Shown here: piece after piece, positions 4,762 to 59,990 of the stretch
Layout: each line of letters starts with the position of its first letter
Numbering within the stretch: the stretch's first letter is position 1
Source of the DNA: Gemmatimonadetes bacterium T265
Lineage (GTDB): Bacteria > Gemmatimonadota > Gemmatimonadetes > Gemmatimonadales > Gemmatimonadaceae
Direction of reading: 5' to 3'
Length of the DNA: 64,000 nucleotides
Assembly: GCA_019973575.1 (NCBI GenBank)
Contig: BPUI01000001.1
Location: 1,934,342-1,998,341 of the forward strand
The notes under the pieces: generated by a model
What the model was told of the DNA's origin: nothing
What the model saw: the letters and a program-made list of their open reading frames with translations, nothing else
Databases searched by the model: none
Position numbers and translations under genes: made by a program

Positions 4762-4860
4762 GCCGGCCGGCAATTCCGGCCGTCTATACCCGGCGCGCGT
4801 TGCCGCGTGCCGTAAGTGCCGTTACCCTCGCGAAAGCGGGGGGCCCACCTCCGCCCCGGG

Positions 4861-6237
4861 TCAGTACCCCACGCGAGCGCCTAACATCCGGAGCCGCGCG
4901 CGGGGCGCTGCCGCGACGTGGTACTTCGACGCGCGGTGCTTCACGTCGCCCACAGACGCGCTCGCGCGCGGTGACGCCGCCGGAGGCGAGAGGCTGAACA
5001 GCGGCGACGGGATCTCGGCGCGCGACGCCGACACCGTCCCCCCGCACGCGGTCTGTGTCTGCAGCCACGCCGTGGCCGCCTGCACGACCGCGTCCGACGA
5101 CGCCGACGTGGCCGGTTCGACGGCGTTGCCCGAGGGCCCGGACACGGCCACCGTGGGGGGGATCGACCCGCCCCACGTCTGCCCGGTGCGGTCGACGTCG
5201 ATGGCGCCCACGATGTTCAGGTAGCTACTGTCGGACCCGGGGTCCAGGTCGACCATGTACGCCCCGTACGGCGCCGTCGTCACGCCGTAGGTGCTCGCAC
5301 CGAAGGTCCGCACCGGGAACGACACCCCGCGGAACGCGAGGACGATCTCCTCGCCCGCGCTCGCCGTGTACCCGCCCTGCAGGATCGCCACCGGCGAGCC
5401 CGGGCGCTTCAGCGTGTAGTTGCTCGACGCGCGGGTGTACACCGTGTCGTACCGCGGGTCGTTCTGGCCAGGCGTGGTGATCCCCGCCATGCCATTCTGC
5501 AGGAAGAAGTACGACTTCACGCCGTCGCGGTCGACGATGCTCAGGAAGCCCTGCTGTCCGCCGCCGTACGGCGCATTCCCGAGGATCGGGTTGATGCCGT
5601 CGAACATCGCCGCCCAGGTACCGCCGGGGTTGTAGCGCAGGTCGATGATCCACCCGCACGGCGCGCTCTGGTCGAGCGTCCGGATGACCGTCTGGATCGA
5701 GTCCGCCCGCCCGGTGTCGTTGGTCCCGTCGTACGTCGGCAGCCAGAGGTAGGCGACGTTCGGCGCGGTCGTCCCGCCCAGCGCGAAGTTGCGCCCCGAG
5801 GTCAGGTAGAGCGCATTGTTAGGCGAGTTCACCACGCCCGGCGCGTCGGTCGCCGGGAAGAAGGCGCTATGTTGGTCGCCCCCCGACGCGGGGTCCGCGT
5901 TCACGAGCCACGGGTCGATGCTCCGGTCGACCGCGCTCCACGTCTGGCTGTCGACCTGCGCCGCGCCCGCGGTCTTGAACACGTCCGCGCGTTGCGACGT
6001 CGAATCGACGTTCTTCCACCAGTAGTCGACCGCCGCCTCGAAGGTCAGCGCGGAGTCGAGGTACGCGGTCGCGACGCTCGAGATGGTCGCCGGCGGGGTG
6101 GTGGTCGTGGACGTGCCGGTCACGCGATCGCTACTGCAGGCGGCGAGCGCGACGGCCGTCGCGAGTGCGCCGAGGCCGGCAGCCGCACGCCGGCGGCGCG
6201 ACGGCGCCCGGAGGCGCCGATGCATATCGGAAGTCAT
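4861..6237 (-). CDS. S41-family (C-terminal-processing protease-like) lipoprotein
   Basis: A 458-residue exported protein. The N-terminus has many Arg, a hydrophobic stretch and a lipobox ending at Cys34 (ALAACSS), so it is probably a lipoprotein. The S41 signature DLRYNPGG (199-206) precedes the likely nucleophile Ser293 in GGYTASAGEEI. No PDZ domain is obvious between them, and this simplifies it relative to Tsp/CtpA proteases. The C-terminal 50 residues are low-complexity and basic. It interrupts the flagellar run between fliO-fliP and fliQ and is followed by its own hairpin. Nothing in the sequence ties it to motility. Start chosen at the first ATG; ATG at codon 5 is an alternative. Confidence 0.8.
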   Translation of the reverse strand: MTSDMHRRLRAPSRRRRAAAGLGALATAVALAACSSDRVTGTSTTTTPPATISSVATAYLDSALTFEAAVDYWWKNVDSTSQRADVFKTAGAAQVDSQTWSAVDRSIDPWLVNADPASGGDQHSAFFPATDAPGVVNSPNNALYLTSGRNFALGGTTAPNVAYLWLPTYDGTNDTGRADSIQTVIRTLDQSAPCGWIIDLRYNPGGTWAAMFDGINPILGNAPYGGGQQGFLSIVDRDGVKSYFFLQNGMAGITTPGQNDPRYDTVYTRASSNYTLKRPGSPVAILQGGYTASAGEEIVLAFRGVSFPVRTFGASTYGVTTAPYGAYMVDLDPGSDSSYLNIVGAIDVDRTGQTWGGSIPPTVAVSGPSGNAVEPATSASSDAVVQAATAWLQTQTACGGTVSASRAEIPSPLFSLSPPAASPRASASVGDVKHRASKYHVAAAPRARLRMLGARVGY

Positions 6238-6337
6238 GGCGGGGCGAAGTGAGACGTATGCTGACGCGCAGTGCTACACGCAAACACCCCGCACGCGATC
6301 GCACCCCCACCTCGCCATCCCGCCTTCCGCCCCGCCC

Positions 6338-7807
6338 TTAACGGAAACTTTGTACGAGCGACTGCACGACCAACGTCCACCCGTCGACGAGCACGAACAG
6401 CAGCAGCTTGAACGGCAGCGACACCATCGCGGGCGGCAGCATCATCATCCCCATGCTCGTGAGCACCGCGCTCACGACCACGTCGATGACGATGAACGGC
6501 AGGAAGAGCGCGAAGCCGAGTTGGAAGGCGGTGCGCAGTTCGCTCGTCACGAAGGCCGAGGTGAGCACGACCAGCGGCACGTCGTCGGGCGTGCGCGGCG
6601 CCGGAGCCGCCGTGTCCGCGCGCGCGCGGCTCAACTCGAGGAAGGTCTCGACGTCGCGCTCTCGGGTCTGCCGCAGCATGAACGCGCGCAGCGGCTTCGC
6701 GCCGCGGTCGAGCATCTCGACCTGCTGGATCTGCCCGCCGAGCCACGGCTGCAGCGCGGTGCGGTTGATCTCGGCCACCGTCGGCGCCATCACGAAGCCC
6801 GTGAGGAGCAGCGCGAGTCCCGCGACGAGCTGGTTGGGCGGCGCCGTCTGCGTGCCGAGCGCCTGCTTGAGAAACTGCAGGACGACGAGGATGCGCGTGA
6901 ACCCCGTCATCATCAGCACGAGCGACGGGAGCAGCGTCAGCAGCCCGAGCATCACCACGACGCCGACCGTGCCGCTCAGGCGCAGTCCCTGCGCCGCCCC
7001 CGCGCCACCGCCGACGCGCACGTCCATCGTCGGCGCGAGCTTCGCGACCATCGTGTCGACGGTAACGACGCTCGTCGGGGGCGGGGGCGCGGTGGTCGAC
7101 GGCGGACGTGCGGCGAATCCCGGCGCCGGCCCGGACAGCGTCGGCGGCGTGGGACTCGGTGCCGCCGGCACGCCCGGCGCGCCCCGCGTCGTAGCAGCCG
7201 GCGCCCCCGCGCCGACCCGCGCCGGCGCCGCGCGCGTCACCTGCTGCACCGCCGCCTGCCGCAGCGCGGCTTGGGCGAGCGCGCTCTGCACGAGCGCGTT
7301 CTGCGTCGAGGCGGGGAGCGCCGCGGGCGCAGGGGCGGCCGGCGCGGCCGGCGACACGGCGGGCGGGCGCGGGGCGGCCTGCGCCCCGCCCCCGCGCGCC
7401 GCCCCGGCGATGAGCAGCAGCCCGCCCGCCGCCCGCGTCGCCTGCGTGAGCGCCGCGCGCAGCGCCTCGCCGAATCGCGCCCCCGCGCGCCCTTCGTGCG
7501 GCGCGCCCGCCGGCGCGCCCGCCGGTGCCGGCGCGAGCACGCCCGCGAGGTCGGCCCCGTCCAACTCGGCCAACGGCTGCACGCCACCTTCCCCCGTTCC
7601 GACGACGAGCACGCGCGCGCCGACCCGCACGACCGCGACGCCCTGCTTCGGGCCGAGCGACAAGCGCTGGACCACCTCGAGCGGAAGCCGCGCGCGCCCG
7701 CCGCCGGCCGCCGGCGCGAACCGCTGCAGCACGCGCAGCGTGACGAACAACAGCGCGAGCACCACGCCGAGCGCGACGAGCACGCCGGCGACCGCGCCCG
7801 CCGTCAT
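6338..7807 (-). CDS. fliP: Fused flagellar export proteins FliO-FliP
   Basis: A single 489-residue frame combines two proteins that are usually separate. Residues ~1-85 look like FliO: one N-terminal membrane segment, then a basic stretch and a small beta domain (LEVVQRLSLGPKQGVAVVRVG). Residues ~90-265 are an Ala/Pro/Gln-rich linker. Residues ~270-489 are FliP, with the signature around TGFTRILVVLQFLKQALGTQ (301-320) and PPNQLVAGLALLLTGFVM. No start codon or ribosome site separating the two halves stands out, and the linker stays in frame. FliP builds the export pore and FliO is its assembly factor, so fusion would tether the chaperone to its client. The start lies 22 bases after the fliN stop. 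Confidence 0.9.
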   Translation of the reverse strand: MTAGAVAGVLVALGVVLALLFVTLRVLQRFAPAAGGGRARLPLEVVQRLSLGPKQGVAVVRVGARVLVVGTGEGGVQPLAELDGADLAGVLAPAPAGAPAGAPHEGRAGARFGEALRAALTQATRAAGGLLLIAGAARGGGAQAAPRPPAVSPAAPAAPAPAALPASTQNALVQSALAQAALRQAAVQQVTRAAPARVGAGAPAATTRGAPGVPAAPSPTPPTLSGPAPGFAARPPSTTAPPPPTSVVTVDTMVAKLAPTMDVRVGGGAGAAQGLRLSGTVGVVVMLGLLTLLPSLVLMMTGFTRILVVLQFLKQALGTQTAPPNQLVAGLALLLTGFVMAPTVAEINRTALQPWLGGQIQQVEMLDRGAKPLRAFMLRQTRERDVETFLELSRARADTAAPAPRTPDDVPLVVLTSAFVTSELRTAFQLGFALFLPFIVIDVVVSAVLTSMGMMMLPPAMVSLPFKLLLFVLVDGWTLVVQSLVQSFR

Positions 7808-7829
7808 CGCGCACCAACGCGGCGAGCGC

Positions 7830-8225
7830 TCACGCGGCGAGCGCCGGCGCGGCCGCGGCGGCGAAGATCCGTACGATCCGCACGCCGAAGTGCTCCCCGA
7901 GCACGACGACCTCGCCCTCGGCGAACTTGCGGTCCCCGACGTAGATGTCGAGCGGCTCGCCCGCGAGCCGGTCGAGCTGGATCACCGACCCGCGCGCGAG
8001 GCGCAGGATCTCCTGCACGGTCATCGTCGTCCGCCCGAGCTCGATCGACACGGGGAGCGACAGGTCGAACAACATGCCTAACGGGACCTCGCTGCCCGGC
8101 GCCGAGGCGGCGAAGTCGGCCGGGGGGCTCGCGGGCTCGGGCGGGGCGGCGGGCGCGACGGCCTGGCCGCCCGCCTTGGCGGCCTGCACGCTCGCGACGA
8201 GGGCGTCGATCTCTGCGGGGTTCAT
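7830..8225 (-). CDS. fliN: Flagellar motor switch protein FliN
   Basis: This 131-residue C-ring component starts at ATG 8225 (MNPAEIDALVASVQ). A Pro/Ala-rich segment is followed by the SpoA domain (about residues 50-125), with the conserved LPVSIELGRTTMTVQEIL and DIYVGDRKFAEGEVVVLG stretches. The frame is open further upstream into fliM, but the SpoA alignment and the fliM overlap favour this start. It follows fliM and precedes the fliO-fliP fusion. Confidence 0.94.
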   Translation of the reverse strand: MNPAEIDALVASVQAAKAGGQAVAPAAPPEPASPPADFAASAPGSEVPLGMLFDLSLPVSIELGRTTMTVQEILRLARGSVIQLDRLAGEPLDIYVGDRKFAEGEVVVLGEHFGVRIVRIFAAAAAPALAA

Positions 8226-8302
8226 CCGGGGGAGGCGTGGGGGGAGACTCGGTCGGGCGGGGCGCGGCCGGCCGCGGCCGCACGGTGTCGGGCCATTAAT
8301 CG

Positions 8303-9331
8303 TTAGGCGTGTGCCGGGTCCTCGTCGCCCGCCGCGCCGGCCGGGGCGACGGAGTCCTGCAGGCGCACCGCGAGCCGCCGGCCGATGCGGCCCGCCGACC
8401 CGGTGTAGCGCGCCCGCCCGCCGACGAGCACCGTCAGCTCGGCATCGCGCGGGATCCCCGTCGCGAGCACCTCGCCGGGTATGAGCGCGCCGAGCTCGCG
8501 CAGCGACAGCCGGAACGCGGGCAGCCGCGCCGACACCGCGACCGGCGTCGCCCGCAGCGCGCGCTCGGCGCGCTCGCGCGCCTCGTCCCGCTCGCGGTCG
8601 TTCCCGGCCGGGCCGCTCGCCCGCCGCGGGCCCCCGCCCTGGAAGAACTTCTCCAGCGCCGCGAACGGCAGGCAGACGAGCAGCAGCGACGCGGCCTGCC
8701 CCACGTTCACCTCGATGTTCGCGACGAGCACCGGGTCCTCCCGGTTCGCGACCTGGAGGATCTCCGGGCTGGACTCGAAGCCGGTCACGTGTAACGCGAG
8801 CGGCACGTGGTCGCGCCAGATCTCCTCGACCAGCTGGCACGTGCGCTCGGCCACCGTGCGCAGCGCGAGCCGTTCGACGGGCGACAGCGCCCGCGCGAGG
8901 AGCGCCGCCTGCCCCCCCCCGCCGAAGAGGCGGTCGACGAGGAAGAAGGCGAGCTCGCCGCCGACGTCGACCACGCCCTGCGTGCCGCCCGGCCCGCCGA
9001 CGTCGAAGATGTACGTCGCGCTCGGCGTCGGCAGCGACTGCGTGAACTCGCCGAAGGTGAACTGGTCGACGCTCTGCAGCCGCAGCTCGACGTGCCCGCG
9101 CACGCGCGAGATGAGCCAGCCTTCGAGCGCCTTCACCATCCGCTCGTACATCGCCTCCAACGTGCGCAGGCGCTCCTTGCTGATGCGGTGCGGGCGGCGG
9201 AAGTCGTACGCCTGCACCTCGGCGTCGGCGTCCGGCGCGCCGAACATGCCGCCCAACGCCGCCGCGGGCTGCGCCAGGCCGCCCGTGGCATCGAGCAGGC
9301 GGTCGATGTCGTTCTGCGAGAGCGACTGCAT
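8303..9331 (-). CDS. fliM: Flagellar motor switch protein FliM
   Basis: The 342-residue switch protein binds phospho-CheY and connects FliG to FliN. The N-terminal LSQNDIDRLL is the CheY-P docking helix. A CheC-like middle domain (about 40-225) and a C-terminal SpoA domain (about 255-330) follow. The stop TAA lies inside GCCTAAC. It sits 13 bases downstream of the fliL stop. With cheY at 43327 it completes the core signal-to-motor path in this window. Confidence 0.96.
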   Translation of the reverse strand: MQSLSQNDIDRLLDATGGLAQPAAALGGMFGAPDADAEVQAYDFRRPHRISKERLRTLEAMYERMVKALEGWLISRVRGHVELRLQSVDQFTFGEFTQSLPTPSATYIFDVGGPGGTQGVVDVGGELAFFLVDRLFGGGGQAALLARALSPVERLALRTVAERTCQLVEEIWRDHVPLALHVTGFESSPEILQVANREDPVLVANIEVNVGQAASLLLVCLPFAALEKFFQGGGPRRASGPAGNDRERDEARERAERALRATPVAVSARLPAFRLSLRELGALIPGEVLATGIPRDAELTVLVGGRARYTGSAGRIGRRLAVRLQDSVAPAGAAGDEDPAHA

Positions 9332-9344
9332 CGAGACGCCGCGA

Positions 9345-9995
9345 CTACTGGATGACGAACTGCGGGAAGTACACGCGCCGCACCCCGCGCGTGTGCAACG
9401 CCTTCGCCGTCGCGGCGCGCAACTCGGCCTTGAGCGAGTCGCGCGCGGTCATTTCCGAGAGCTGCTCGACGGTCTTGCCGCCGAGCGTGACGAGGATCGC
9501 GTCGCGCAGCTCCGCGTCGCGCGACTTGATCGACTCGAGCGCGGCCGCGTCTTTCATCTCGAACGCGATCGACAGGAGCAGGAACCGCGTCCCGCCCGAG
9601 CCCGCGGGGTTGAGCACGAGGTTGTCGATCGTGTACACCGACGCGGCCGCGCCCTCCTTGCCACCCTTCTTCTCGCCACCGTCGCCCTCGTCGTCGGCGG
9701 CCGCGTCGCCGTCCGCGTCGCCGCCGTCGGCCTCCGCGTCGGCGGACTTGGCCGCGTGATGCTTGACCTGCGCGGCGGCCACCGACGGCGTAATCCCACT
9801 CGCGAGGGCGGGACCGACGCCGAATGCGCCCGCGCCGCCGCCGAGCGCGAGCCCGGCGACGACGGCAAGAATGACCGGCAGTGGCTTCGGTCCGCCGGCC
9901 GACGGGGCGGGCTCGGCGGCGGCGGGAGGAGCAGCGTCGGCGGACACGGGCGGGGCGGCGGGGAGGGGACGGCGGGACGCGACCGGGGAAGGCAC
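9345..9995 (-). CDS. fliL: Flagellar basal body-associated protein FliL
   Basis: A 216-residue, single-pass inner-membrane protein linked to stator function. The short cytosolic N-terminus is Pro/Ala-rich. One membrane segment (about residues 38-62) is followed by an acidic low-complexity linker (Asp/Gly/Glu, about 85-115). The periplasmic FliL domain ends in VRRVYFPQFVIQ, typical of the family. It begins the fliL-fliM-fliN-fliOP block. The flgE terminator lies upstream, so this block probably has its own promoter in 9996-10080. Confidence 0.92.
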   Translation of the reverse strand: MPSPVASRRPLPAAPPVSADAAPPAAAEPAPSAGGPKPLPVILAVVAGLALGGGAGAFGVGPALASGITPSVAAAQVKHHAAKSADAEADGGDADGDAAADDEGDGGEKKGGKEGAAASVYTIDNLVLNPAGSGGTRFLLLSIAFEMKDAAALESIKSRDAELRDAILVTLGGKTVEQLSEMTARDSLKAELRAATAKALHTRGVRRVYFPQFVIQ

Positions 9996-10080
9996 GGCGG
10001 GTGCCGCCGGCGCGCGGGCGGTAACGCGTTGCGGGTCAGCACGTTAGGCGCGGTCGGCCGCCCGTGGCCCAGACGACCGA

Positions 10081-10115
10081 ACGCGCCGGGCGGCAACGTG
10101 TGCCGCCCGGCGCGT
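10081..10115 (-). terminator. Terminator hairpin after flgE
   Basis: A perfect 15-bp inverted repeat (ACGCGCCGGGCGGCA and its complement) closes a 5-base loop, 43 bases past the flgE stop. On the minus strand it is followed by a T-containing stretch without a long T-run. It probably ends the flgB-to-flgE transcript before fliL. Confidence 0.7.
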
Positions 10116-10157
10116 GGCCGATTCTTCCGGGGCAGGCGCGGCGACGCCCCGACCCTG

Positions 10158-11711
10158 TTACTGCTTGATCTGCATCAGCTCCTGCAGCATCTGGTCGCTC
10201 GTCGTGATCACCTTCCCGTTCGCCTGGAAGGCGCGCTGGGCGATGATCATGTTCGTGAACTCCTGCGCGAGGTCCACGTTCGACATCTCGAGCGCGCCGG
10301 CCGTGATCTGCGACTGGCTCCCCTCGAGCGCGTAGCCGAGCACCGCGCCGCCCGAGTTCGCCGACTCCTGGAACATGTTGTCGCCCGTCTTCAGCATCCC
10401 TGCCGGGTTGTTGAAGTCGGCGAGCACGATGCGCCCGAGCGGCTGCGTCGTACCGTTGGAGTACGAGCCGTTGATCACGCCGTAGCGGTCGATCGAGTAG
10501 TTCTGCAGCGTCCCCGCCGTGTAGCCATCCTGGTCGCGGAGCACCGCCGTCGACGACGTCGCGGACTGCGTGAGGCCGCTCGACCCGCTGCCGAGGTCGA
10601 GTTTGACGTTGACGTCGTCGGCGCCCGGGACCGAGAACTTCAGCACCGGCGCGTCCGACCGCGTCGGGTCGAGGTTGCCCTCTTGGTCGAAGGTCAGGAC
10701 GCCGCCGTTCACCCCGTGCCAGGTCGACGGGTCCGTCGCGGTCGTGCCGCTCGCCGGGGCGGGCGTGATCGAGTAGTTGATCGTCGCCAGCTCGTTCCCG
10801 TTCACGTTGATCGACGGGTCGATCTTGTAGTCGCCCGTCGCCGAATCGTAGCTGATGTACTTCGGGTCGATCTGCAGGCCGCTCGCGGTCGTCGCTCCCG
10901 CGACGGTGACGGTCGTCCCGCTCCCCGCGGTGGGGATCGAGAAGTGGTGTGCGCCCGCGGAGTCCGCGGTGCCGATCATCGCCGGCACGCTCACCGTCGG
11001 CGACGTCGGGTCGAGGCGCCACGCCCACTGGTTGGCGTTCGTCTTCCAGAGCTGGAGCTTGACGTCGTGCTGGTTGCCGAGCGAGTCGTAGGTCGTGAGC
11101 GACGTCTCGGTCCACGACCCGGGGTTGGACGCGCGGTCGGTCGCGCTCGCGATGTCGAACCCGGACGGGACCTGCGTCGCCGACGCGTTCAGGTTGCCGC
11201 CGAGCGCCATCTTGTCGGTCGCCTTCGCGGCCACCTTCTGCCCGAACGGGATCGTGATGTCCTGCACGCCGTCCTGCGCGATGCCGTTCTTGTACATCTC
11301 GCCCTGCACGACGAAGCCGTTGGTCGGCGAGACGAGCTTGCCGTCGCTGTCGACCTGAAAATTGCCCGAGCGCGTGTACGAGCTCTGCGCGCCCTTGCGC
11401 ACCACGAACATCGCGTCGCCCTGGATCGCGAGGTCCGTCGCGTTGCCGGTCGTCTCGAGGTTGCCCTGCGTGTACATCTGGTCGATCGACCCGATCTGGC
11501 TGCCGAGCCCGATCTGAATCGGGTTGGTGCCGCCCTGGTCGCCCGGCGGGCGGCTGCCGCCCTGCAGGAGCTGCGCGAAGCCCTCCTTGAACGTCACGCG
11601 GCCGGCCTTGAAGGCCGTGGTGTTAACGTTTGCGATGTTGTTGCCGATAACGTCCATGCGGGTTTGCTGGTTGCGCAAACCGGAGACGCCGTCGAAGAGG
11701 GAGCGGAGCAT
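10158..11711 (-). CDS. flgE: Flagellar hook protein FlgE
   Basis: This 517-residue hook subunit starts at ATG 11711 (MLRSLFDGVSGLRNQQTRMD); upstream open frame is not protein-like. The N-terminal rod/hook signature (IGNNIANVNTTAFKAGR) and the C-terminal signature (SNVDLAQEFTNMIIAQRAFQANGKVITTSDQML) flank a variable Ser/Thr/Gly-rich middle that forms the exposed hook domains. Length is within the normal hook range. It follows flgD, the hook cap, and fliK, the length ruler, so the three hook-assembly genes are adjacent. Confidence 0.96.
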   Translation of the reverse strand: MLRSLFDGVSGLRNQQTRMDVIGNNIANVNTTAFKAGRVTFKEGFAQLLQGGSRPPGDQGGTNPIQIGLGSQIGSIDQMYTQGNLETTGNATDLAIQGDAMFVVRKGAQSSYTRSGNFQVDSDGKLVSPTNGFVVQGEMYKNGIAQDGVQDITIPFGQKVAAKATDKMALGGNLNASATQVPSGFDIASATDRASNPGSWTETSLTTYDSLGNQHDVKLQLWKTNANQWAWRLDPTSPTVSVPAMIGTADSAGAHHFSIPTAGSGTTVTVAGATTASGLQIDPKYISYDSATGDYKIDPSINVNGNELATINYSITPAPASGTTATDPSTWHGVNGGVLTFDQEGNLDPTRSDAPVLKFSVPGADDVNVKLDLGSGSSGLTQSATSSTAVLRDQDGYTAGTLQNYSIDRYGVINGSYSNGTTQPLGRIVLADFNNPAGMLKTGDNMFQESANSGGAVLGYALEGSQSQITAGALEMSNVDLAQEFTNMIIAQRAFQANGKVITTSDQMLQELMQIKQ

Positions 11712-11802
11712 CGGGCGGGGGCTGAAGGAAGGATTAGACGGATTGCGCGACGATTCCGGGACCGCCCGCGCGGGCGCCCGGACGGGGACCGGTCGGGGCC
11801 GG

Positions 11803-12159
11803 TCAGGACCCGGTCGTCTTCGACGTCGATCCCGAGGACGTCGAGGACCCGCCGTTCGCAACGCGGAGCGCGTTCGAGATCTGCGTCAGCGTGTCGTTCG
11901 CGTTCTGCAGCTGCTCGACCGTCGAGAACTGGGCCAGTTGGGCGGCCATCTGCGTGCCGTCCATCGGGCTTTCCGGGTCCTGGTTCTTCATTTGCGCGAC
12001 GAGCAGCTGGAGAAACTGGTCCTTCCCCATCGCCCCGCCGGGGCCGGCGTTAGTCGACGTGGCGGACGTGGTGGTCGTCGTCGCTGTCGGGGCCGCGGGG
12101 GCGACGGGCGGCGTCGTCGCCGCCGCGGCGGCGGTCGACGCCCGCAGGGCGTGGAGCAT
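11803..12159 (-). CDS. flgD: Hook-capping protein FlgD, short form
   Basis: FlgD caps the growing hook. Only 118 residues are encoded. After a Thr/Ala-rich leader, the N-terminal FlgD signature (GKDQFLQLLVAQMKNQDPESPMDGTQM, about residues 45-71, then AQFSTVEQL) is clear. The protein then ends in a Ser/Thr-rich tail. The C-terminal tudor/Ig-like domains of the usual 220-residue form are missing, and no continuation in another frame is visible before flgE. Start ATG at 12159; fliK stops 61 bases upstream. Confidence 0.88.
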   Translation of the reverse strand: MLHALRASTAAAAATTPPVAPAAPTATTTTTSATSTNAGPGGAMGKDQFLQLLVAQMKNQDPESPMDGTQMAAQLAQFSTVEQLQNANDTLTQISNALRVANGGSSTSSGSTSKTTGS

Positions 12160-12220
12160 GGGATGCTGGGCAGAAGGTGAGCGATCGGCCCCCGCGGAAC
12201 CGGGGACTGGTATGACGCGA

Positions 12221-14188
12221 TCAGCGCGTCGGGCGCCCGGCGCGCGGAGTGGGCGCGTCGAGATAGGCGTCTGGCGCGGGCCGCCGATTCTGACGCCGGT
12301 CTCCCGCGCGTGCGTCGGCCGCCCCGCCGTCGCCGCGAGGGCGGTCGTCGCCCCGGGCATCGGGACGAGCGTCGGCGTCGCGCGGCGTCTGTCCGCTCGC
12401 GCCGCCGCCGCCCGGGTGCTGCGACGACGTGTCGAACCCGGCGCGAGTCGCGCCGCCGACAGAGGCGGAGAGCACCGTCGCGTCGATCGCGAGCGCGGCT
12501 GTCGTGCGCACGCGAACGTCGTCGGTCGTGAGGCCGTGCTGGGCGAGCGCGGCCCGCAACTCGGGCGTGCGCGTGGCGAGGTGGTCGGCCGCGTCAAGGT
12601 CGGCGACGTCGATCCGCGCGTCGACCGCGCGGCCGCGTACGTCGAGACGGATCCGATCCTCGCCGCCTTCGGCGCGCTCGACGCGGAGCGTGAGGTGCGA
12701 CACGGTGCGGGGCGCCGCCGCCTGCTGTGCGTCGAGCACGCGGGCGATGCGCTCGGCGGCGACGGCCCCGAGGGCCGGGGCGGCGGTCGACTCGGAGGCT
12801 GCTGGTGCGGGCGTCGCGGCCGTCGCGGCCGGGCCGGAGTCGGCCACCGTCAACAGCGGCGCGACGAACCGCGGCCCCGGTCCGGTCGTGTCGAGCCCCG
12901 TTCGAGTGTCGCGCGCGTCTGCGCGGCGGTCCGGCGTGTGGCCGCCGGATGCGGCCCCCTCGCCGTCGGGTGCGTCGTTCGTTGCGTGCGAAGACGCGCC
13001 CGCGGTCACGGCAACCGGCGTGCGTCCGGGGTCCGCCACCTTTGGGTCTCGCGCATGCGACCGCCGCGCCGGTGCGACGTCGCGCGTCGACCCGTGGTCC
13101 GCGCCACGGTCTACCTGACGGTCCGCCTCCCGCGGAGCGCGGGTGGGCTTCGGCGCGACTGCCGTCGTCGACGTCATCGACGCCGAGAGCGCCGCCGGTG
13201 CGGCCACGCTCGCCACCGTCGCGACCGGCGCCACGCCGGCAACGGCCGCGACCCGCGCGACGTGCGCCGTCGGCGCGACCGCCGCCGAGTCGATCGCGGC
13301 GTTCATCGCCGCGATGGCCGACGCGACGCTCGACGGCTGCGCGGGCGCGCCCGCGCCGGCGCCCGCGGGCTCGGTAGTCACGCCGAACGACTCCACCGTG
13401 ACGCGCGCGCCCGCGGCGTCGCCTAACGCGGCGACCTCGCCCGGCACGTCGCGCGGCAGCTCCAGGTGCCCGGGGTCGCGCGGGCCGAGCGTGCGGAGCC
13501 CCTCGACCCGCGCGACCTGCTGCAGGCGGGCGAACGCCGTCGGGTCGGTGTAGCCGCCGTCGACGGTGACGTCGACCGCCCGGCCGCGCGTGTGGGCGGA
13601 GTCGCGCGTCCAGGTCACGACGGGGCCAGAGCGCGTCCGCCCTTGCGCGTACAGGTAGTCCTGGCGCGCCTGGGTGCGCCCGGTCTCGGCGATCTGGACG
13701 TCGTGTCCGTAGTCGCGCTTCATGCGCGCGACGACGCGCCCGAGCCGCTCTTGGAGCGCCGGCGCGAGGGCGTTCGGGTCGCGCGACGCGCGCTTCACGC
13801 CGGCCGCCTTTGCGGCGCCCGTGGTCGCGGGCGTGACCGGGTCCGTCGCCGGACCGGTCGTCGCGGCCGTCGCCGGGACGGGCGCACCCGCGGCGGCGAG
13901 CGCGGCGAGCAGCGCGGGCGCGGCGGGTGCCGTGTTGCCGTCCGGGTTCGGGCCCGCGGCCCCGTCGTCCGACGCGGACGCATCGTCCTCGGCGGCGCGG
14001 GCGGCGTCACCGGGCTTGAAGCTGACGAGCCGCGTCGCGAGCATCGCCGCGAACGGCGCCTGCGCGCCGGCCGCCGGCGCGGCGCCCGCGCGGCCGCCGG
14101 CGGCACCCGCCGCGGGCGGGGCCGGGTTCGGCACGTCGGTCGCGCCGAGGAGGGAGGCGAGGGCCGCCGGCGTCCCAACCGCGCGCAT
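12221..14188 (-). CDS. fliK: FliK hook-length control protein with an embedded M15-type peptidoglycan peptidase domain
   Basis: A 655-residue protein between the MotE-like gene and flgD, the usual place of fliK. Residues ~1-135 are a low-complexity Ala/Pro export-type region. Residues ~139-245 resemble M15-family (VanY/CwlK type) peptidases: an ETGRTQARQDYLYAQGRT stretch, the zinc motif SAHTRGRAVDV (His199, Asp206) and a later GHLEL (His241) supply the three expected zinc ligands. A long Ala/Thr/Asp-rich linker follows. Residues ~480-580 look like the FliK C-terminal hook domain (RIRLDVRGRAVDARID, then LRAALAQHGL). The tail is disordered. The ATG at 14188 shares its A with the preceding TGA; a GTG three bases earlier is an alternative. 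The FliK assignment rests mainly on the C-domain pattern and position. Confidence 0.75.
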   Translation of the reverse strand: MRAVGTPAALASLLGATDVPNPAPPAAGAAGGRAGAAPAAGAQAPFAAMLATRLVSFKPGDAARAAEDDASASDDGAAGPNPDGNTAPAAPALLAALAAAGAPVPATAATTGPATDPVTPATTGAAKAAGVKRASRDPNALAPALQERLGRVVARMKRDYGHDVQIAETGRTQARQDYLYAQGRTRSGPVVTWTRDSAHTRGRAVDVTVDGGYTDPTAFARLQQVARVEGLRTLGPRDPGHLELPRDVPGEVAALGDAAGARVTVESFGVTTEPAGAGAGAPAQPSSVASAIAAMNAAIDSAAVAPTAHVARVAAVAGVAPVATVASVAAPAALSASMTSTTAVAPKPTRAPREADRQVDRGADHGSTRDVAPARRSHARDPKVADPGRTPVAVTAGASSHATNDAPDGEGAASGGHTPDRRADARDTRTGLDTTGPGPRFVAPLLTVADSGPAATAATPAPAASESTAAPALGAVAAERIARVLDAQQAAAPRTVSHLTLRVERAEGGEDRIRLDVRGRAVDARIDVADLDAADHLATRTPELRAALAQHGLTTDDVRVRTTAALAIDATVLSASVGGATRAGFDTSSQHPGGGGASGQTPRDADARPDARGDDRPRGDGGAADARAGDRRQNRRPAPDAYLDAPTPRAGRPTR

Positions 14189-14895
14189 CACCGCCCCTTC
14201 GCCGACACGCGGAGCGTCGCGCGCCCGACCGCCGCTGCGCGCTGGGCGGAGAGGTTGCCAAGGATCGCCGCGGCCTGCCGGTCGCCGACGTATCCGAGGA
14301 TCGTCTGGATGTCGTGGTCGTCCATCTGCTCGAGGATCTTGGCGGCCTCCTTCGGCGGCATCGCACCGAAGTACTTCGCGAGCCGGCGCTCCGGCGGACC
14401 CGCGGCGTCGCTCACCCGCGGCGCTTGCGGCGCGGCCGGGGCCGGCGCGGCGACCGCCGCGGCGGGCGCGTGGGCGCCGGCGTCGCGCTCCTCGTGCGCG
14501 GCGTGTCCGGCCGCCGCGCGCGCCGCGGCGGTGGTCGCGGCGACGTGCGCGGCCGACGCGCTTGCCGCGTGCCCGTCGGCGGTCCGATGCGCGGGCGGGC
14601 TAGCCGGAGCGGCGCCGGAGTCCGCGCGAGCCGACTCCGCGTGCGCGGGCTCGGCATGCACGGGCTCGGTATGCGCGGGCTCGGCGTGCGCGAGATCGGC
14701 GCGCGCCGCATTGGTGGCTGCGGGCTGGGCCTCCGCCCCGGCGGGGCGTGCCGCCGCGCCGGGCGCCACGGGCGCGGCCGCCGCGACGACGCCTAACGGA
14801 GCGACGGCGTGCTTGGCGCGCTGGACGACGACGATCGTGGCCCCGCTCAGGCCGGTGAGGAACCCGACGAGGAGGGGCATGACGAGGCGGAGCAT
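14188..14895 (-). CDS. MotE-like flagellar protein (MgtE N-terminal-type domain)
   Basis: The 235-residue protein has one N-terminal membrane segment (MLRLVMPLLVGFLTGLSGA). A long Ala/His/Glu-rich periplasmic linker follows, including a tandem repeat of AEP(A/V)H units. The C-terminal domain (about 170-230, LAKYFGAMPPKEAAKILEQM and following helices) resembles the MgtE N-terminal fold found in flagellar MotE proteins. MotE chaperones MotC in rhizobia. Position between fliJ and fliK is typical of this family in many phyla. Its TGA overlaps the fliK ATG by one base. Confidence 0.75.
   Translation of the reverse strand: MLRLVMPLLVGFLTGLSGATIVVVQRAKHAVAPLGVVAAAAPVAPGAAARPAGAEAQPAATNAARADLAHAEPAHTEPVHAEPAHAESARADSGAAPASPPAHRTADGHAASASAAHVAATTAAARAAAGHAAHEERDAGAHAPAAAVAAPAPAAPQAPRVSDAAGPPERRLAKYFGAMPPKEAAKILEQMDDHDIQTILGYVGDRQAAAILGNLSAQRAAAVGRATLRVSAKGR
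14642..14701. repeat. Four 15-bp tandem repeats inside the MotE-like gene
   Basis: Units read tgcgcgggctcggca with one to three changes each, at 14642, 14657, 14672 and 14687. They encode five-residue periodic Ala/Glu/Pro/His units in the linker, so copy number changes would lengthen the linker without shifting frame. Confidence 0.8.
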
Positions 14896-14943
14896 GCGCG
14901 GGAAGGGGAGCGCGTGGGGAAGGGACGAACGCGGAAGGCGCGG

Positions 14944-15402
14944 TCAGACGCCGCCGGCCGGCCGGACCGCGCGCTGCGTGAACCGCGTGAGGGCGATCTC
15001 GTCCATCTGCTGCCGGTCCGCCGCGACCGCGCCCGCCTGCCACGTCGTGTGGTGCCGCTCGCGCAGGCGGTCGAGCGCGCGCCGGTCGCGGTACGCCGCG
15101 TGGAGCGCGTGCTCGCGGTCGGACACGGCCGCTGCGGCGGCTTCGGCGACAGCGCCCGCGGCCTCGGCCTGCGCGTCGAGCCGGCCGACGAGGAACGCCG
15201 TCGTGCGGAGCGCGCCGACCGGCGCGCCGGCGCCGGCCGGCGCGAAGCCCGCCGCGGCGAGTTCGACGCGCGCGCTCAGGATCGCCGCCTCGGCGCGGCG
15301 TGCGGCGTCGGCCGCGTCCTGGGCCGCCGCGAGCGCTGCGGCGGCGTCGCGCTGCTGGCGCTCGCGCAGGTCGAGCACGCGTTGCAAGGGGAAGCGGAAC
15401 AC
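14944..15402 (-). CDS. fliJ: Flagellar export chaperone FliJ
   Basis: The 152-residue protein is mostly predicted helix. It begins MFRFPLQRVLDLRERQQRD, the characteristic FliJ start, and continues as an Ala/Arg-rich coiled coil. FliJ inserts into the FliI hexamer and stimulates export by touching FlhA. It lies 30 bases after fliI and before the MotE-like gene. The central stretch (about residues 50-65) breaks the helix with Gly/Pro, slightly unusual for the two-helix hairpin. Confidence 0.85.
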   Translation of the reverse strand: MFRFPLQRVLDLRERQQRDAAAALAAAQDAADAARRAEAAILSARVELAAAGFAPAGAGAPVGALRTTAFLVGRLDAQAEAAGAVAEAAAAAVSDREHALHAAYRDRRALDRLRERHHTTWQAGAVAADRQQMDEIALTRFTQRAVRPAGGV

Positions 15403-15432
15403 GTGGTCAGGACGGCCGTCGCGTGCGCGGCG

Positions 15433-16833
15433 TCACGCCGCGCGCCGCGTCGCGGCGGCGTCGATCTGTACGCTGAGGTGGCGGAGTGCGGCGCGCGTCA
15501 TCGTCAGCGGCGAACTCTCCTCCGGCCGCTGCTGGAAGAAGCCGAGCGCCTGCTCGCGGAGCGCCACGGCCGCGTCGACCATCGGGTCGCTCCCCTTCTG
15601 GTACGCGCCGACGAGGATCAGGTCCTCCTTCTCGCGGTACGCCGCTTCGGTCTTCAGCAGCAGGTTGGCGGCCGAGCGCTGGTCGGGTGGGATGATCTGG
15701 TCGCGCACGCGGCTCTTCGAGTCGAGCACGTCGATCGCGGGGAAGTGCCCGGCCGCGGCGAGCTTGCGCGTCAGCACGACGTGTCCGTCGAGGATCGAGC
15801 GCGCCGCGTCGGCCACCGGCTCGTTGAAGTCGTCGCCGTCGACGAGCACAGTGTAGATGCCGGTGATCCCGCCGCGGTCGCCGTTCCCGGCGCGCTCGAG
15901 CAGGCGCGGCAGCGCGGCGAACACGCTCGGCGGGTAGCCCTTGGTCGTCGGGGGCTCGCCCACGGCGAGGCCGATCTCGCGCCACGCCATCGCCACGCGC
16001 GTCACCGAGTCGACCATCAGCAGCACCTGCTTGCCCTGGTCGCGGAAGTACTCGGCGATCGCCGTCGCGACGAGCGCGCCGCGCGCGCGCACGAGCGCCG
16101 CCTGGTCGCCGGTGGCGACGACGAGCACCGAGCGCGCGAGCCCCTCGGGGCCTAACGAGTGCTCGATGAACTCGCGCACCTCGCGCCCGCGCTCGCCGAG
16201 CAGGGCGATCACGTTCACGTCGGCGCGCGCCTGGCGCGCGACCATGCCGAGCAGCGTGCTCTTGCCGACCCCCGAGCCCGCGAAGATCCCGACCCGCTGC
16301 CCGCGCCCGAACGTGAGGCACCCGTCGATCGCGCGCACGCCGGTCTCGAGCACCTCGCCGACCATCTCGCGGGCGAGCGGGTTCGGCGGCTCGGCCGAGA
16401 GCGGGACGCGCTCGTCGGCGTCGAGCCGGCCGAGCCCGTCGATCGGGTGGCCGAGCCCGTTGAGCACGCGGCCGAGCAGCCCCGGGCCGACGTCGACGCC
16501 GAACGAGCGGCCTAACGCGCGCACCGCGCTCCCCGGGTGCAGCCCGTCCATCTCGCCGAGCGGCATGAGCAGCACGCCGCCCTGGTGGAAGCCGACCACC
16601 TCGGCGAGCACCGAGCGGTCGCCGGTGAGCGAGGTGACGCGGCACAGCTCGCCGAGCCCGACGTCGAGCCCCGCGGCCTCGATGACGAGGCCGACCACGC
16701 GCGTGACCTTGCCGTAGCTCGCGAGCCGCGGCACGACGGCGAGCGCGCGCGTCAGCTCGGCGAAGACCGGCGCGGCGGCCCACGGCATGCCGACAACCGG
16801 CGTTGCCCGGCCGCCGATGCGGTGCCCGCTCAC
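15433..16833 (-). CDS. fliI: Flagellar export ATPase FliI
   Basis: This 466-residue F1-beta-like ATPase drives substrate unfolding at the export gate. Walker A is in GIFAGSGVGKSTLLG, followed by GERGREVREFIE and the Walker B region VLLMVDSVTRVA. I choose the GTG at 16833, which overlaps the fliH stop as GTGA and gives the normal length. The ATG at codon 16 (MPWAAAPVFAEL) is an alternative. Two Leu-Gly pairs are written TTA-GGC. Confidence 0.95.
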   Translation of the reverse strand: MSGHRIGGRATPVVGMPWAAAPVFAELTRALAVVPRLASYGKVTRVVGLVIEAAGLDVGLGELCRVTSLTGDRSVLAEVVGFHQGGVLLMPLGEMDGLHPGSAVRALGRSFGVDVGPGLLGRVLNGLGHPIDGLGRLDADERVPLSAEPPNPLAREMVGEVLETGVRAIDGCLTFGRGQRVGIFAGSGVGKSTLLGMVARQARADVNVIALLGERGREVREFIEHSLGPEGLARSVLVVATGDQAALVRARGALVATAIAEYFRDQGKQVLLMVDSVTRVAMAWREIGLAVGEPPTTKGYPPSVFAALPRLLERAGNGDRGGITGIYTVLVDGDDFNEPVADAARSILDGHVVLTRKLAAAGHFPAIDVLDSKSRVRDQIIPPDQRSAANLLLKTEAAYREKEDLILVGAYQKGSDPMVDAAVALREQALGFFQQRPEESSPLTMTRAALRHLSVQIDAAATRRAA

Positions 16834-17678
16834 GCGACGTGCCCCGCGAGCGCGCGGTATAACCGCTCGAGCGCGGTGTCGACGCGCCCGTCGACGATCC
16901 GCTCGCGTCCCTCGACGACCGCGCCGCCGCGTGCGACGCGCTCGTCCGGCGCCCAGCGCACGGCGCCCTCGCGCGCCGTAGCGTCCCACGCCGTCTTGAG
17001 CGCGTCGAGGTCGTCGGGGTGCACGCGCGCGACGAGCGCTTCCTGCACCGGGAACTCGGCCACCGCGCGCGCCGCGAGCGCGACCACGAGCGCATCGTCC
17101 GCGGCGACCTCGCGCCCGACCACGTGGTGCGCGACCGCGACGGCGAGCGCCGCGACGTGCGCGCGCAGGTCGCCCATCCACCGCTCCTCGTGCGCCCGCA
17201 GCTCGCGCGCGGCCGCGTCGAACGCGGCCGCCACGTCGGCGAGCGCGGCGCGGGCGTCGGCGTCGCCCGCCGCGCACCCGGCCGCGTGCCCGTCCGCCCA
17301 CGCGAGCCCGAGCGCCTCCGCGTGCGCGGCCTCGTGCACGGCGAGCTCCGCGGCGCGTGCCGCTTCCATGTCGAGCCGCACCTGCGCCTCGCGCTCGTCC
17401 GCCGCGTCCGCGACGAGCGCCGCCCAGGCGCTGTCGCCGGCGTGCCACGCGGCCCGCATCGCCGACGTCGCGCCGAAGTCGGGGAGCGCGTCGAAAGCGT
17501 TAGGCGTCGGCAGCCGGGCCGGCGGCGGGGCCGGCGCGGCAGCCCAGTCGCCGGCGAACGTCCCCGCGGCCGCCGAGGGTGCGGGGGCGCCGAGCGCGGG
17601 CGCGTCGTCCCACGCGGCGGGGACCCAGGCGGCGGGCGGCGCGCCCGCCGGACCGCGGTTCGACGTCGTCGGCGGCAT
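16830..17678 (-). CDS. fliH: Flagellar export ATPase regulator FliH
   Basis: FliH dimers hold FliI away from the gate and act as its stator. The 282-residue protein has a Pro/Ala-rich N-terminus (to about residue 80), a long Ala-rich helical region (about 85-175), and a C-terminal domain matching FliH/V-ATPase E-type proteins (VAVAHHVVGREV, then VARVHPDDLDALK). It sits between fliG and fliI, overlapping fliI by four bases and starting 5 bases after fliG. Confidence 0.88.
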   Translation of the reverse strand: MPPTTSNRGPAGAPPAAWVPAAWDDAPALGAPAPSAAAGTFAGDWAAAPAPPPARLPTPNAFDALPDFGATSAMRAAWHAGDSAWAALVADAADEREAQVRLDMEAARAAELAVHEAAHAEALGLAWADGHAAGCAAGDADARAALADVAAAFDAAARELRAHEERWMGDLRAHVAALAVAVAHHVVGREVAADDALVVALAARAVAEFPVQEALVARVHPDDLDALKTAWDATAREGAVRWAPDERVARGGAVVEGRERIVDGRVDTALERLYRALAGHVA

Positions 17679-17682
17679 CGCG

Positions 17683-18705
17683 TTAGACGAGCACGTCGTC
17701 GCCGCCCGCGCTGAGCACGATCTCGCCGCTCTCCTCGAGCTTGCGGACCTGCGTGACGATCGCCGTCTGCGCCGTCTCGACGTCGCGCATGCGGACCGGG
17801 CCCATGAACTCCATCTCTTCCTTGAGCGCGGCCACCGCGCGCTGCGACATGGCGCCGAGGATCTTCCCCTTGAGGTCCTCGCTCGCCGCCTTGAGGGCGA
17901 GCGCGAGCTGCTTCGCGTCGACCTCGCGCAGCAGCCGCTGCAGCGACTTGTCGTCGAGCGCCACGAGGTCCTCGAAGACGAACATGAGGTTCTTGATCTG
18001 GTCGGCGAGCGCCGCGTCGCGCGCGGCGAACCCCTCGACCAGCTCCTTCTCGAGCGACCCGGAGACGAGGTTGAGGACGCTCGCCACGGCCGCCGGCCCG
18101 CCCGCGGCCGCCATCCCGGTCGTGAACGTGAGGTCGGCGTCGCTCGACAGCGCGCGCTCGACGAGCTGCAGCATTTCGGGGGCGACCTTCTCCATCTTCG
18201 CCATCCGGTACATGACCTCGCCGCCGAACGCGGGCGCCAGTTCGCGGAGGATGGCCGCCGTGTGCGCCGGCTCGAGGTGCGCGAGGACGAGCGCGGCGGT
18301 CTGCGGGTGCTCGCCGCGCAGCGTCGTCGCGAGCTGCTGCGGGTCGAGCTTGCGCAACTTCGGCATCCCGACGGTGTCGGCGAGCTGGTGCTGGATGCGC
18401 TTGAGCATCACGTCGGCCTTCGCCTTCCCGTACGCGCGCTCCAGCACGTCGCGCGCGAACTCAAGCCCGCCGGTCGTCAGCGACGCGACGCTCAGCGTCG
18501 CCTCGAGCCACTCCGCGAGCACTCCCTCGACGACCTCCGGCGCCACGCGGTCCGTCTGCGCGATTTCGAGACTGATCTGCTCCAACTCCTCGGGCGTGAG
18601 CCCGACGCCGAGCTTCGCCGTGACCTCGGGGCCGACGGACATGAAGACGATCGCGAGCTTCTGGCGCCCGCTCATCGGGCGCTCGGCGGGGAGGGCGAGG
18701 GTCAT
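17683..18705 (-). CDS. fliG: Flagellar motor switch protein FliG
   Basis: The 340-residue rotor protein interacts with MotA. It shows the N-terminal FliF-binding domain, the middle-domain signature EHPQTAALVLAHLEP, and a C-terminal domain with the charged torque helix (LDDKSLQRLLREVDAKQLALALK). Length fits. ATG at 18705 is used; an in-frame ATG at codon 11 (MSGRQKLAIVFMSVG) would be closer to the typical start. It follows fliF by 18 bases. Confidence 0.96.
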   Translation of the reverse strand: MTLALPAERPMSGRQKLAIVFMSVGPEVTAKLGVGLTPEELEQISLEIAQTDRVAPEVVEGVLAEWLEATLSVASLTTGGLEFARDVLERAYGKAKADVMLKRIQHQLADTVGMPKLRKLDPQQLATTLRGEHPQTAALVLAHLEPAHTAAILRELAPAFGGEVMYRMAKMEKVAPEMLQLVERALSSDADLTFTTGMAAAGGPAAVASVLNLVSGSLEKELVEGFAARDAALADQIKNLMFVFEDLVALDDKSLQRLLREVDAKQLALALKAASEDLKGKILGAMSQRAVAALKEEMEFMGPVRMRDVETAQTAIVTQVRKLEESGEIVLSAGGDDVLV

Positions 18706-18723
18706 CGGCCGGGTAGGTGGCGG

Positions 18724-20346
18724 TCAGTCCTGCCGCAGCCACGCGCGGACCACGCGTGTGGCGGCTTCGGGGCGCTGCTCGATCATCGCGACCACCTGGT
18801 CGCGCACCGGGTTGCTGAGCTCGCGGAGCACGGTCGACGTGCCGTCCGGCCCCGCGACGAGCACGCCGCCTCCGGACTCGCTCACCGCGAGCTGGCCGCC
18901 CTCCCCCGACCCGAGGGCCGGCGTGCCGACGGGCGCGATCTCCTCGCCGTCGACGTCGACCGCCGCGGAGCCTGCCGTCCCGGCGCCGAGCGCCGCGACC
19001 GCCGCCTCGGCCGCGGGAGCGGCAGCCGGCTTCAGCGCGCGCATCGTCACGACCGCGACGACGAGCAGCGCCGCGAGCGCCAGCCCCGTGACGAGCGGCT
19101 TCTCCGCGCCCGAGAGCTTCTGCCACACGTCGGCCTTCGGCTCCGCCGCCGGCGTGAGGCCGCCGTCGAAGGCGACGTTCACGACGCTCAGCTTGTCGCC
19201 GCGCGCGGAGTCGAGGCCGACCGCGTTGCGCACGAGCGTGTCGAGCCGCGCGAGCTCGGCCGGGCTGCGCGGCACGGGGGCCGGCTTGGCGCCGGTCGAG
19301 AGCTTGTCGTTGACGAGTACGGCGACCGTAAGGCGCCGTACGTTGCCGATCGCCCCCGAGAACGTCTCCGTGCTCTTCGTCGTCTCGTAGCTCGTCGCGA
19401 CGTTGGTGCTCGCCGCGCCGCCCTGCGCGCCCGGCGTGATCTCCGCCTTCTGCTCCGTCGCGACCGCCTGCTTGTCGGGGTCGACGGCCTCGGTCGTGCG
19501 CTCGACCTTGTCGAAGTTGACGAGCGCGCTCACCTGCACGCGCGCGTTCTTCGGCCCGACGACCTGGGCGACGATCTCCTGCGCCTTCTTTTCGAGGTAG
19601 CCCTCGACCTCGCGTTGTACCGCGAGCTGCCGGCTCGTGAGCCCCGCCATCGAGCCCGCCTCGCCGTCCATCGTCAGCATCCGCCCGGCGTCGTCGACGA
19701 TCGTCACGTGGTCGCTCGCGAGCCCGTCGACGCTCGCCGCGACGAGGTGGGTCATCCCCTCGACCACGTCCGCGCTCGGCCGCTCGCCATTCGTCAGCTT
19801 CAGGACCACGCTCGCCTCGAGCGGGCGGTCGCCGCGCCGGAAGAGCTGCGTCTCGGGCATCGCGACGTGCACCTGCGCCTGCTCGATCCCGCGCATCTTG
19901 CCGATCGTCCGCTCCAACTCGCCCTCGAGCGCGCGGCGGTAGTTGATCCGCTGCGTGAAGTCGGTCATCCCCCACGACGGCTGGTCGAACAGCTCGAGCC
20001 CGGGGCGCCCGGCGTTGGGCAGCCCGCCGTCGCGCGCGAGCGTGACGCGCGCGCGGGCGAGGTCCTCCGTCTTCACCTGGATCTCGGTGCCGCCCTTCTC
20101 GAGGTGGTACTCGATGCCGGCCTCGCCGAGCTTGTCGGTCATCTTGCCCGACTGTTCGACCGGCACGTTGGCGAACACGGGGACGAACGTCGGCGCCGTC
20201 GCCCAGCGCGAGACGCCGAAGACGAGACCCGCGGTGAGGAGCCCGACGAGGAGGATCAGCGCGCGGCGGGGTCCGCCCAGCCGGTCGACGGCGGGCTGGA
20301 GGGGCGCGAGGGGGGCGGGGAGGGCGGCGAGCACGCGAAGCGACAA
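18724..20346 (-). CDS. fliF: Flagellar MS-ring protein FliF
   Basis: This 540-residue protein forms the membrane ring on which the motor and export gate assemble. It has a membrane segment at about residues 29-48, the periplasmic ring-building domains (GIEYHLEKGGTEIQV; RINYRRALEGELERTI), a second membrane segment near residue 440 (LALAALLVVAVVTM) and a C-terminal FliG-binding tail ending RAWLRQD. It is preceded by a hairpin that ends the HNH gene, so it may start a new transcript. Confidence 0.96.
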   Translation of the reverse strand: MSLRVLAALPAPLAPLQPAVDRLGGPRRALILLVGLLTAGLVFGVSRWATAPTFVPVFANVPVEQSGKMTDKLGEAGIEYHLEKGGTEIQVKTEDLARARVTLARDGGLPNAGRPGLELFDQPSWGMTDFTQRINYRRALEGELERTIGKMRGIEQAQVHVAMPETQLFRRGDRPLEASVVLKLTNGERPSADVVEGMTHLVAASVDGLASDHVTIVDDAGRMLTMDGEAGSMAGLTSRQLAVQREVEGYLEKKAQEIVAQVVGPKNARVQVSALVNFDKVERTTEAVDPDKQAVATEQKAEITPGAQGGAASTNVATSYETTKSTETFSGAIGNVRRLTVAVLVNDKLSTGAKPAPVPRSPAELARLDTLVRNAVGLDSARGDKLSVVNVAFDGGLTPAAEPKADVWQKLSGAEKPLVTGLALAALLVVAVVTMRALKPAAAPAAEAAVAALGAGTAGSAAVDVDGEEIAPVGTPALGSGEGGQLAVSESGGGVLVAGPDGTSTVLRELSNPVRDQVVAMIEQRPEAATRVVRAWLRQD

Positions 20347-59757: not shown

Positions 59758-59817
59758 GGCGCGATCGGAGGAGGAAGGCGGCCGCGGGCACGCGGGCTCA
59801 CGTCGGCCCAAACGCAA

Positions 59818-59848
59818 ACCGCCCGGCAGGATGTTGCTGCCGGGCGGT
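59818..59848 (-). terminator. Terminator hairpin after the aminotransferase
   Basis: A perfect 12-bp stem (ACCGCCCGGCAG and complement) closes a 7-base loop, about 140 bases past the aminotransferase stop and just before the TonB receptor gene. On the minus strand the stem is followed by TTTGCGTTT. Confidence 0.7.
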
Positions 59849-59990
59849 GCGAACGCGCTTTAGCTCGTTGTTTAACGTGGCGGCAATCGGCGGCAAATCA
59901 CCACGGTGGTCGGTTGTGCGGGATGATAGCGGGGCCGGCCATTTGCGCAAGTCGCTCAGTGCTGAATCACCCGGCGGTCGGCCCGTGCGG

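Follow-up and report, generated by a model that had tools for sequence, protein, structure and literature searches.

Can the protein that measures the flagellar hook also open the cell wall? The question is raised by one gene in a 64,000-nucleotide stretch of the Gemmatimonadetes bacterium T265 genome (the window; coordinates are window positions unless a genome, contig or locus is named). A preliminary description, made from sequence alone, placed an M15-type peptidase segment ahead of a FliK-like C-terminal domain in this gene. Otherwise, the wall is opened for the flagellum by a dual-domain FlgJ or by a separate enzyme (PMC8517470). Here, we show the architecture of the FliK-M15 fusion and evaluate what the peptidase may do.

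The fused gene lies in a flagellar cluster

The gene, its domains and its neighbours are listed in Table 1. The cluster runs flhA, flhB, fliR, fliQ, fliP, flgE, flgD, fliK, motE-like, fliJ, fliI, fliH, fliG, fliF, fliE, with several names assigned by reading. This position, beside fliJ and flgD/flgE, is the one expected of a fliK gene. Base 14188 is common to the start of fliK and the stop of the overlapping motE-like gene. Read on the plus strand, the fliK interval is meaningless and a stop interrupts the frame. The protein comprises a low-complexity N-terminus of ~130 residues, the M15 domain, a disordered linker, the FliK C-terminal domain (FliK-C) and a basic tail.

The flagellar cluster also contains an HNH endonuclease gene between fliF and fliE (20511-21182, minus) and an S41-type peptidase gene with a lipoprotein-like start between fliQ and fliP (4861-6237, minus). 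Elsewhere in the window, a SAM_alpha (SAM-II) riboswitch, of a family named for alphaproteobacteria, was found at 59843-59914 (minus). It is upstream of a large gene encoding an outer-membrane receptor-like protein (57190-59817, minus). The same genome carries a nine-base tandem repeat, GTTGCTCGG, in ~16 copies (G000:C4:47518-47666).

Table 1. Coordinates of fliK, its neighbours and the features of its product
Feature	Position	Strand	Details
flgE (hook)	10158..11711	minus	ORF list; homologues adjoin M15-FliK loci elsewhere
flgD (hook cap)	11803..12180	minus	Pfam match at the N-terminus; next gene downstream of fliK
fliK CDS	12221..14188	minus	655 aa + stop; ATG at 14188, GTG one codon upstream
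FliK C-terminal (Flg_hook) domain	12500..12727	minus	residues 488-563; Pfam and fold
(Val-Ala-x)7 tripeptide repeat	13199..13261	minus	residues 310-330; linker between M15 and FliK-C
M15C/LAS zinc-peptidase domain	13442..13792	minus	residues 133-249; profile and fold matches
His241, predicted zinc ligand	13466..13468	minus	motif DPGHLEL
Asp238, predicted catalytic acid/base (DxxH)	13475..13477	minus	equivalent to ChiX Asp120, Ply500 Asp130
Asp206, predicted zinc ligand	13571..13573	minus	motif and conservation
His199, predicted zinc ligand	13592..13594	minus	motif SAHTRGRAVD; aligns with ChiX His68 by motif
motE-like protein with MgtE_N domain	14188..14895	minus	directly upstream of fliK; Pfam
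fliJ	14944..15402	minus	Pfam

FliK has a peptidase domain and a FliK C-terminus

The C-terminal region matched PF02120 (Flg_hook) with 31.1 bits against a curated cut-off of 29.8; 16 of 17 homologues also matched this family. A sequence profile of FliK-C searched against the PDB gave only chance-level matches and missed the FliK structure 2rrl; the fold search recovered it. Briefly, AlphaFold was used to produce a 447-residue model, from 57 homologues, spanning M15, linker and FliK-C. The M15 and FliK-C ends were confident (pLDDT ~93 in the FliK-C part) and the linker was not. Foldseek placed four M15C peptidases first. These were followed by 2rrl, the C-terminal domain of FliK (rank 5, E 0.02, prob 0.96), and 5cuk, the specificity-switch domain of PscP (prob 0.94). 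Hence, by profile, fold, disordered low-complexity linker and position beside fliJ/fliI and flgD/flgE, the protein resembles FliK. Unlike FliK, it has a folded, apparently catalytic zinc peptidase in its N-terminal half and a (Val-Ala-x)n repeat.

The peptidase domain is divergent. With a single sequence, all Pfam M15 models scored below their curated cut-offs (best M15_3, 13.8 versus 23.2 bits). The domain did match the phage endolysin family phrog_6523 (E 3.9e-16), and its 17-sequence profile found the solved L-Ala-D-Glu peptidases 2vo9 (E 3e-11) and 6akv (E 5e-11). Foldseek comparison of an AlphaFold model of the domain (pLDDT 86) returned Ply500, LysECD7, LysB4 and ChiX (E 4e-7 to 8e-5). 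VIA aligned the model with the same M15C structures at Z 12.2-13.1 (rmsd 1.9-2.9 Å, 102-109 residues), including 8q2g (Z 13.1, 2.2 Å over 103 residues) and ChiX (Z 12.7, 1.9 Å over 102 residues).

The domain has three hallmarks of M15C/LAS peptidases: the predicted zinc ligands, an Asp placed three residues ahead of the final His as predicted catalytic acid, and the LAS fold. It shares with the L-Ala-D-Glu endopeptidases Ply500, LysB4, LysECD7 and Serratia ChiX the HxxGxAxD and DxxH motifs, conserved Arg and Glu residues and a core of ~115 residues. Those enzymes are stand-alone lysins, are joined to wall-binding domains, or are secretion helpers. In contrast, the domain in the window is built into a type III secretion ruler, with no wall-binding domain recognised. 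Asp206, Asp238 and His241 are invariant in all 70 fully covered Gemmatimonadota loci, and Asp238 is also present in 17/17 family homologues. His199 is replaced once, by Gln in locus L101. This is the sole zinc-site change, leaving the site intact in 69 of the 70 loci. ChiX, with the same fold, is a peptidoglycan-cleaving enzyme that needs its Asp120 both to cleave in vitro and to function in vivo (PMC5778951). We consider it very likely that the M15 domain is an active peptidase, although catalysis is inferred and there are no activity data.

These results bear out the preliminary description, and the architecture itself is beyond doubt. The description had assigned the interval as the gene in the fliK position, which held, with the frame on the minus strand. 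Its FliK-like C-terminal domain held by Pfam profile and by fold (2rrl), and its M15 segment by fold (VIA Z 12-13) and by conserved zinc ligands. It would have been refuted by the lack of a structural match to M15 peptidases, or of a profile match to FliK-C; neither outcome occurred. The residue numbers given for the ligands (H199, D206, H241) were exact, and D238 of DxxH is present as well.

A tripeptide repeat in the linker accompanies the peptidase

The repeat is seen in FliK linkers of loci L069-L139. Of 63 linkers, 50 have at least four consecutive Val-Ala-x units, against none in 200 rounds of shuffled linkers. Each carrier of the fusion checked singly in lineages f1, f4, f5 and f6 has at least three units; no FliK of f2, f11 or genome G026 does. 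Codons of the repeat vary in the T265 genome. Hence, the protein sequence, rather than DNA slippage, seems to be kept. The AlphaFold model offers no confident structure for the repeat.

The fusion is linked to flagella in Gemmatimonadota

We searched 395 genomes of the phylum with a profile of the domain, using FlhA as the flagellar marker (107 positive, 288 negative). The profile matched 85 genomes at E ~1e-39 or better, always in long frames, and other M15 matches were far weaker. The fusion was present in 85/107 FlhA-positive and 0/288 FlhA-negative genomes (p 4e-66 by a Fisher test that takes no account of relatedness). The 22 FlhA-positive genomes that lack it comprise all ten of f2, all six of the outgroup f11, three of 74 in f1 and three of 17 in f4-f9. 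Among the f1 and f4-f9 exceptions, fliK of G186 is cut by the contig start, G357, G203, G217 and G358 have no FliK match, and G026 represents real decay.

The preliminary description had suggested a search for the same architecture in related genomes, and it was found widely. Sixteen further genera of the family have it, with domain identity of 48-62% and all four catalytic-site residues invariant. In a scan of 85,000 GTDB species, 71 of the best 80 relatives were M15-FliK flagellar loci, 70 of them covering the whole domain. Beyond these 71, matches drop to stand-alone Firmicutes M15C enzymes. Wherever the contig reaches, fliI, fliJ, flgD or flgE adjoins the fusion in the named GTDB loci. Flagella are described for Gemmatimonas phototrophica and G. 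groenlandica (PMC10581226, PMC9862903). In our analysis, the link between the fusion and these cultured strains rests on one record labelled G. phototrophica (L082).

Occurrence outside the phylum was rejected on the best 80 relatives of the GTDB scan. Two fusion records, L076 and L137, are labelled Planctomycetota. In the flagellar tree, both fall within Gemmatimonadota and hence look mis-binned.

The fusion is ancient and the peptidase is its most constrained part

A flagellar tree was built from FlgE, FlgD, FliI and FliG of the same loci. On this tree, the M15-bearing FliK requires one change, with f2 as sister and f11 as outgroup; the T265 genome groups with Gemmatimonas records. Distances between M15 domains track those of FliI, FlgE and FliG (Mantel r 0.65-0.75). 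We conclude that the fusion is ancient, with a single origin on the flagellar-gene tree.

On average, pairs of proteins are 57% identical in M15, 33% in FliK-C and 26% in the linker. Median dN/dS in 13 independent close pairs is 0.089, 0.207 and 0.33, respectively. By both measures, constraint is strongest on the peptidase. Cysteine is absent from the start of M15 to the end of FliK-C in 63 proteins (24,164 residues), as would suit a protein that is exported and folds in the periplasm.

Could the fusion be an artefact of assembly or frame, or the C-terminus not be FliK? The genome is GC-rich, with many long spurious frames. However, the same continuous frame recurs across 17 genera and most of the 71 named records, which rules out an assembly artefact. 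Furthermore, dN/dS is well below 1, and both domains are matched by profile and fold. This explanation is all but excluded.

Phage relatives of the domain (18 phage records) share less than 60% identity. Viral relatives from IMG/VR are not closer either, reaching 46% at most over the full domain. Its closest outside relatives are phage endolysins and Firmicutes M15C proteins that stand alone. Hence, we infer that the domain was likely recruited from a lysin-type gene.

FlgJ lacks a hydrolase domain in the fusion carriers examined

FlgJ of the T265 genome is a 127-residue Rod-binding protein encoded by a separate gene outside the window (G000:C1:1892902-1893285). It has no hydrolase domain. Conversely, a Pfam scan found no Rod-binding domain (PF10135) in FliK, which is thus not a dual-domain FlgJ. 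FlgJ is single-domain (Rod-binding only) in every M15 carrier read or scanned. In the outgroup f11, FliK lacks M15, and each FlgJ read to its full length has an SLT transglycosylase domain at the C-terminus (confirmed by Pfam on two, E ~1e-30). Hence, the putative cutter is on the rod cap in f11 and on the ruler in fusion carriers; the cutting role is inferred in both.

Two further observations concern flgJ. The f11 loci L154, L152, L157, L159, L160 and L167, which belong to another class of the phylum, have SLT in place of the glucosaminidase of enteric FlgJ. Near the T265 flgJ cluster are type VI secretion-like genes (TssK-, TssB-, TssC- and Hcp-like; L059 ~4800-19000, equal to G000:C1:1907800-1922000), identified by reading only.

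The f2 lineage is the main gap in a wall-opening argument. Its ten FlhA-positive genomes have FliK without M15 (loci of the family: L060-L063 and L194-L197), and no hydrolase was apparent in the two flagellar clusters read. FlgJ is single-domain here too, in the genomes examined. Since f2 has neither enzyme, a hydrolase encoded elsewhere can suffice. In G026 (L209 4833-6554, minus), the FliK frame and FliK-C are kept, M15 has decayed and the zinc ligands are lost. This FliK also lacks the Val-Ala-x repeat and contains cysteines. In G113, of the same genus, M15 is intact. Because f2 and G026 are flagellated without an intact domain, M15 is dispensable in places and not universally required.

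These cases bear on a second alternative: that M15 is a non-catalytic module of the ruler, a folded stop or a peptidoglycan sensor, with the active site kept for binding. In its favour, the LAS fold also includes proteins whose role is binding (hedgehog domains appear in the VIA fold matches), and L101 lacks one zinc ligand. However, the metal ligands and catalytic Asp are kept across the class, and dN/dS is lowest in M15. In G026, moreover, the rest of the domain decays along with the zinc site, as expected if catalysis is the purpose of M15. A non-catalytic module is very unlikely.

A proposed model for wall opening by FliK

The zinc site is conserved, the domain is under purifying selection, the linkage to flagella is strict and FlgJ is single-domain in the carriers examined; together, these findings support an active enzyme serving the flagellum. 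The interpretation that we favour, with moderate confidence, is that FliK is a ruler with a built-in active M15C endopeptidase that opens the wall for the rod. That FliK is exported and catalytic, which bond it cuts, and where and when it does so are all inferred. In this model, FliK would pass unfolded out of the cell by way of the flagellar type III channel, as other FliKs do. Molecules exported while the rod is still periplasmic would fold there and take up zinc. They would then cut peptidoglycan stem peptides at the rod tip, most likely at the L-Ala-D-Glu bond. This would open the sacculus, which FlgJ, lacking a hydrolase here, cannot do. Once the rod and rings have passed the outer membrane, later FliK would go outside and serve only as ruler, and FliK-C would flip the export switch.

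Work in Salmonella provides a precedent for delivery. There, FliK is exported while the rod is growing and also while the hook is growing (PMC13344023). FliK-beta-lactamase is active in the periplasm before outer-membrane penetration, most of all in mutants with a rod short of the outer membrane (PMC13344023). Hence, a FliK-borne enzyme is exportable and would act where and when it is needed, although timing in the T265 bacterium is inferred. FliK made after penetration is released outside, where FliK-Bla misfolds (PMC13344023); by the same result, delivery of a FliK enzyme to the periplasm would cease when the tip has passed to the outside. The number of FliK molecules exported per flagellum is small, so only limited cutting would be possible. 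Our evidence on wall opening covers FlgJ and the flagellar clusters; other hydrolases of the genome are outside its scope.

A third alternative is that the endopeptidase is active without being the wall opener of the rod. It might trim or loosen the wall after insertion, for example at the P-ring, or act outside on released fragments or neighbouring bacteria. The release of late FliK to the outside is compatible with this, as are the flagellar gene sets without intact M15 in f2 and G026. However, strict flagellar linkage and the lack of a FlgJ hydrolase suggest that the domain works in assembly. The few FliK molecules made per flagellum are a poor basis for an extracellular weapon. The misfolding of FliK-Bla secreted outside also counts against this alternative. 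We regard this alternative as unlikely.

The wall-opening model can be taken further. In a bolder reading, the ruler is an export-timed wall opener, cutting stem peptides only while the tip is periplasmic and then acting as pure ruler. Opening, measuring and switching would thus reside in one polypeptide. We see as much reason to doubt this reading as to accept it. As part of it, the Val-Ala-x repeat is a possible helper element of the enzyme.

Discussion

The preliminary description inferred that hook-length control and wall remodelling may be combined. This is supported; peptidoglycan cutting at the rod is still an inference. It also knew of no described FliK of this type. Consistent with this, we found no description of a FliK with a peptidase or hydrolase domain in the open-access literature searched, which excludes most subscription journals.

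As with dual-domain FlgJ (rod cap joined to glucosaminidase or SLT), the proposal is that peptidoglycan is opened by a wall enzyme fused to an exported flagellar protein. The separate flagellar lytic enzymes SltF and LTaseBb share the proposed role of opening peptidoglycan for the rod. Unlike in dual-domain FlgJ, the partner here is the ruler and not the rod cap, and FlgJ is single-domain. Furthermore, FliK-M15 is expected to cut the stem peptide, whereas FlgJ, SltF and LTaseBb act on the glycan.

The fusion marks most flagellated Gemmatimonadota and is testable in flagellated cultures. If the wall-opening model is true, these bacteria would have a second, independent answer to crossing the wall, with the cutter on the ruler rather than the rod cap and a peptidase in place of a glycan-cleaving enzyme. 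Export of FliK would also be tied to periplasmic activity, making the fusion a natural test of FliK export during rod growth.
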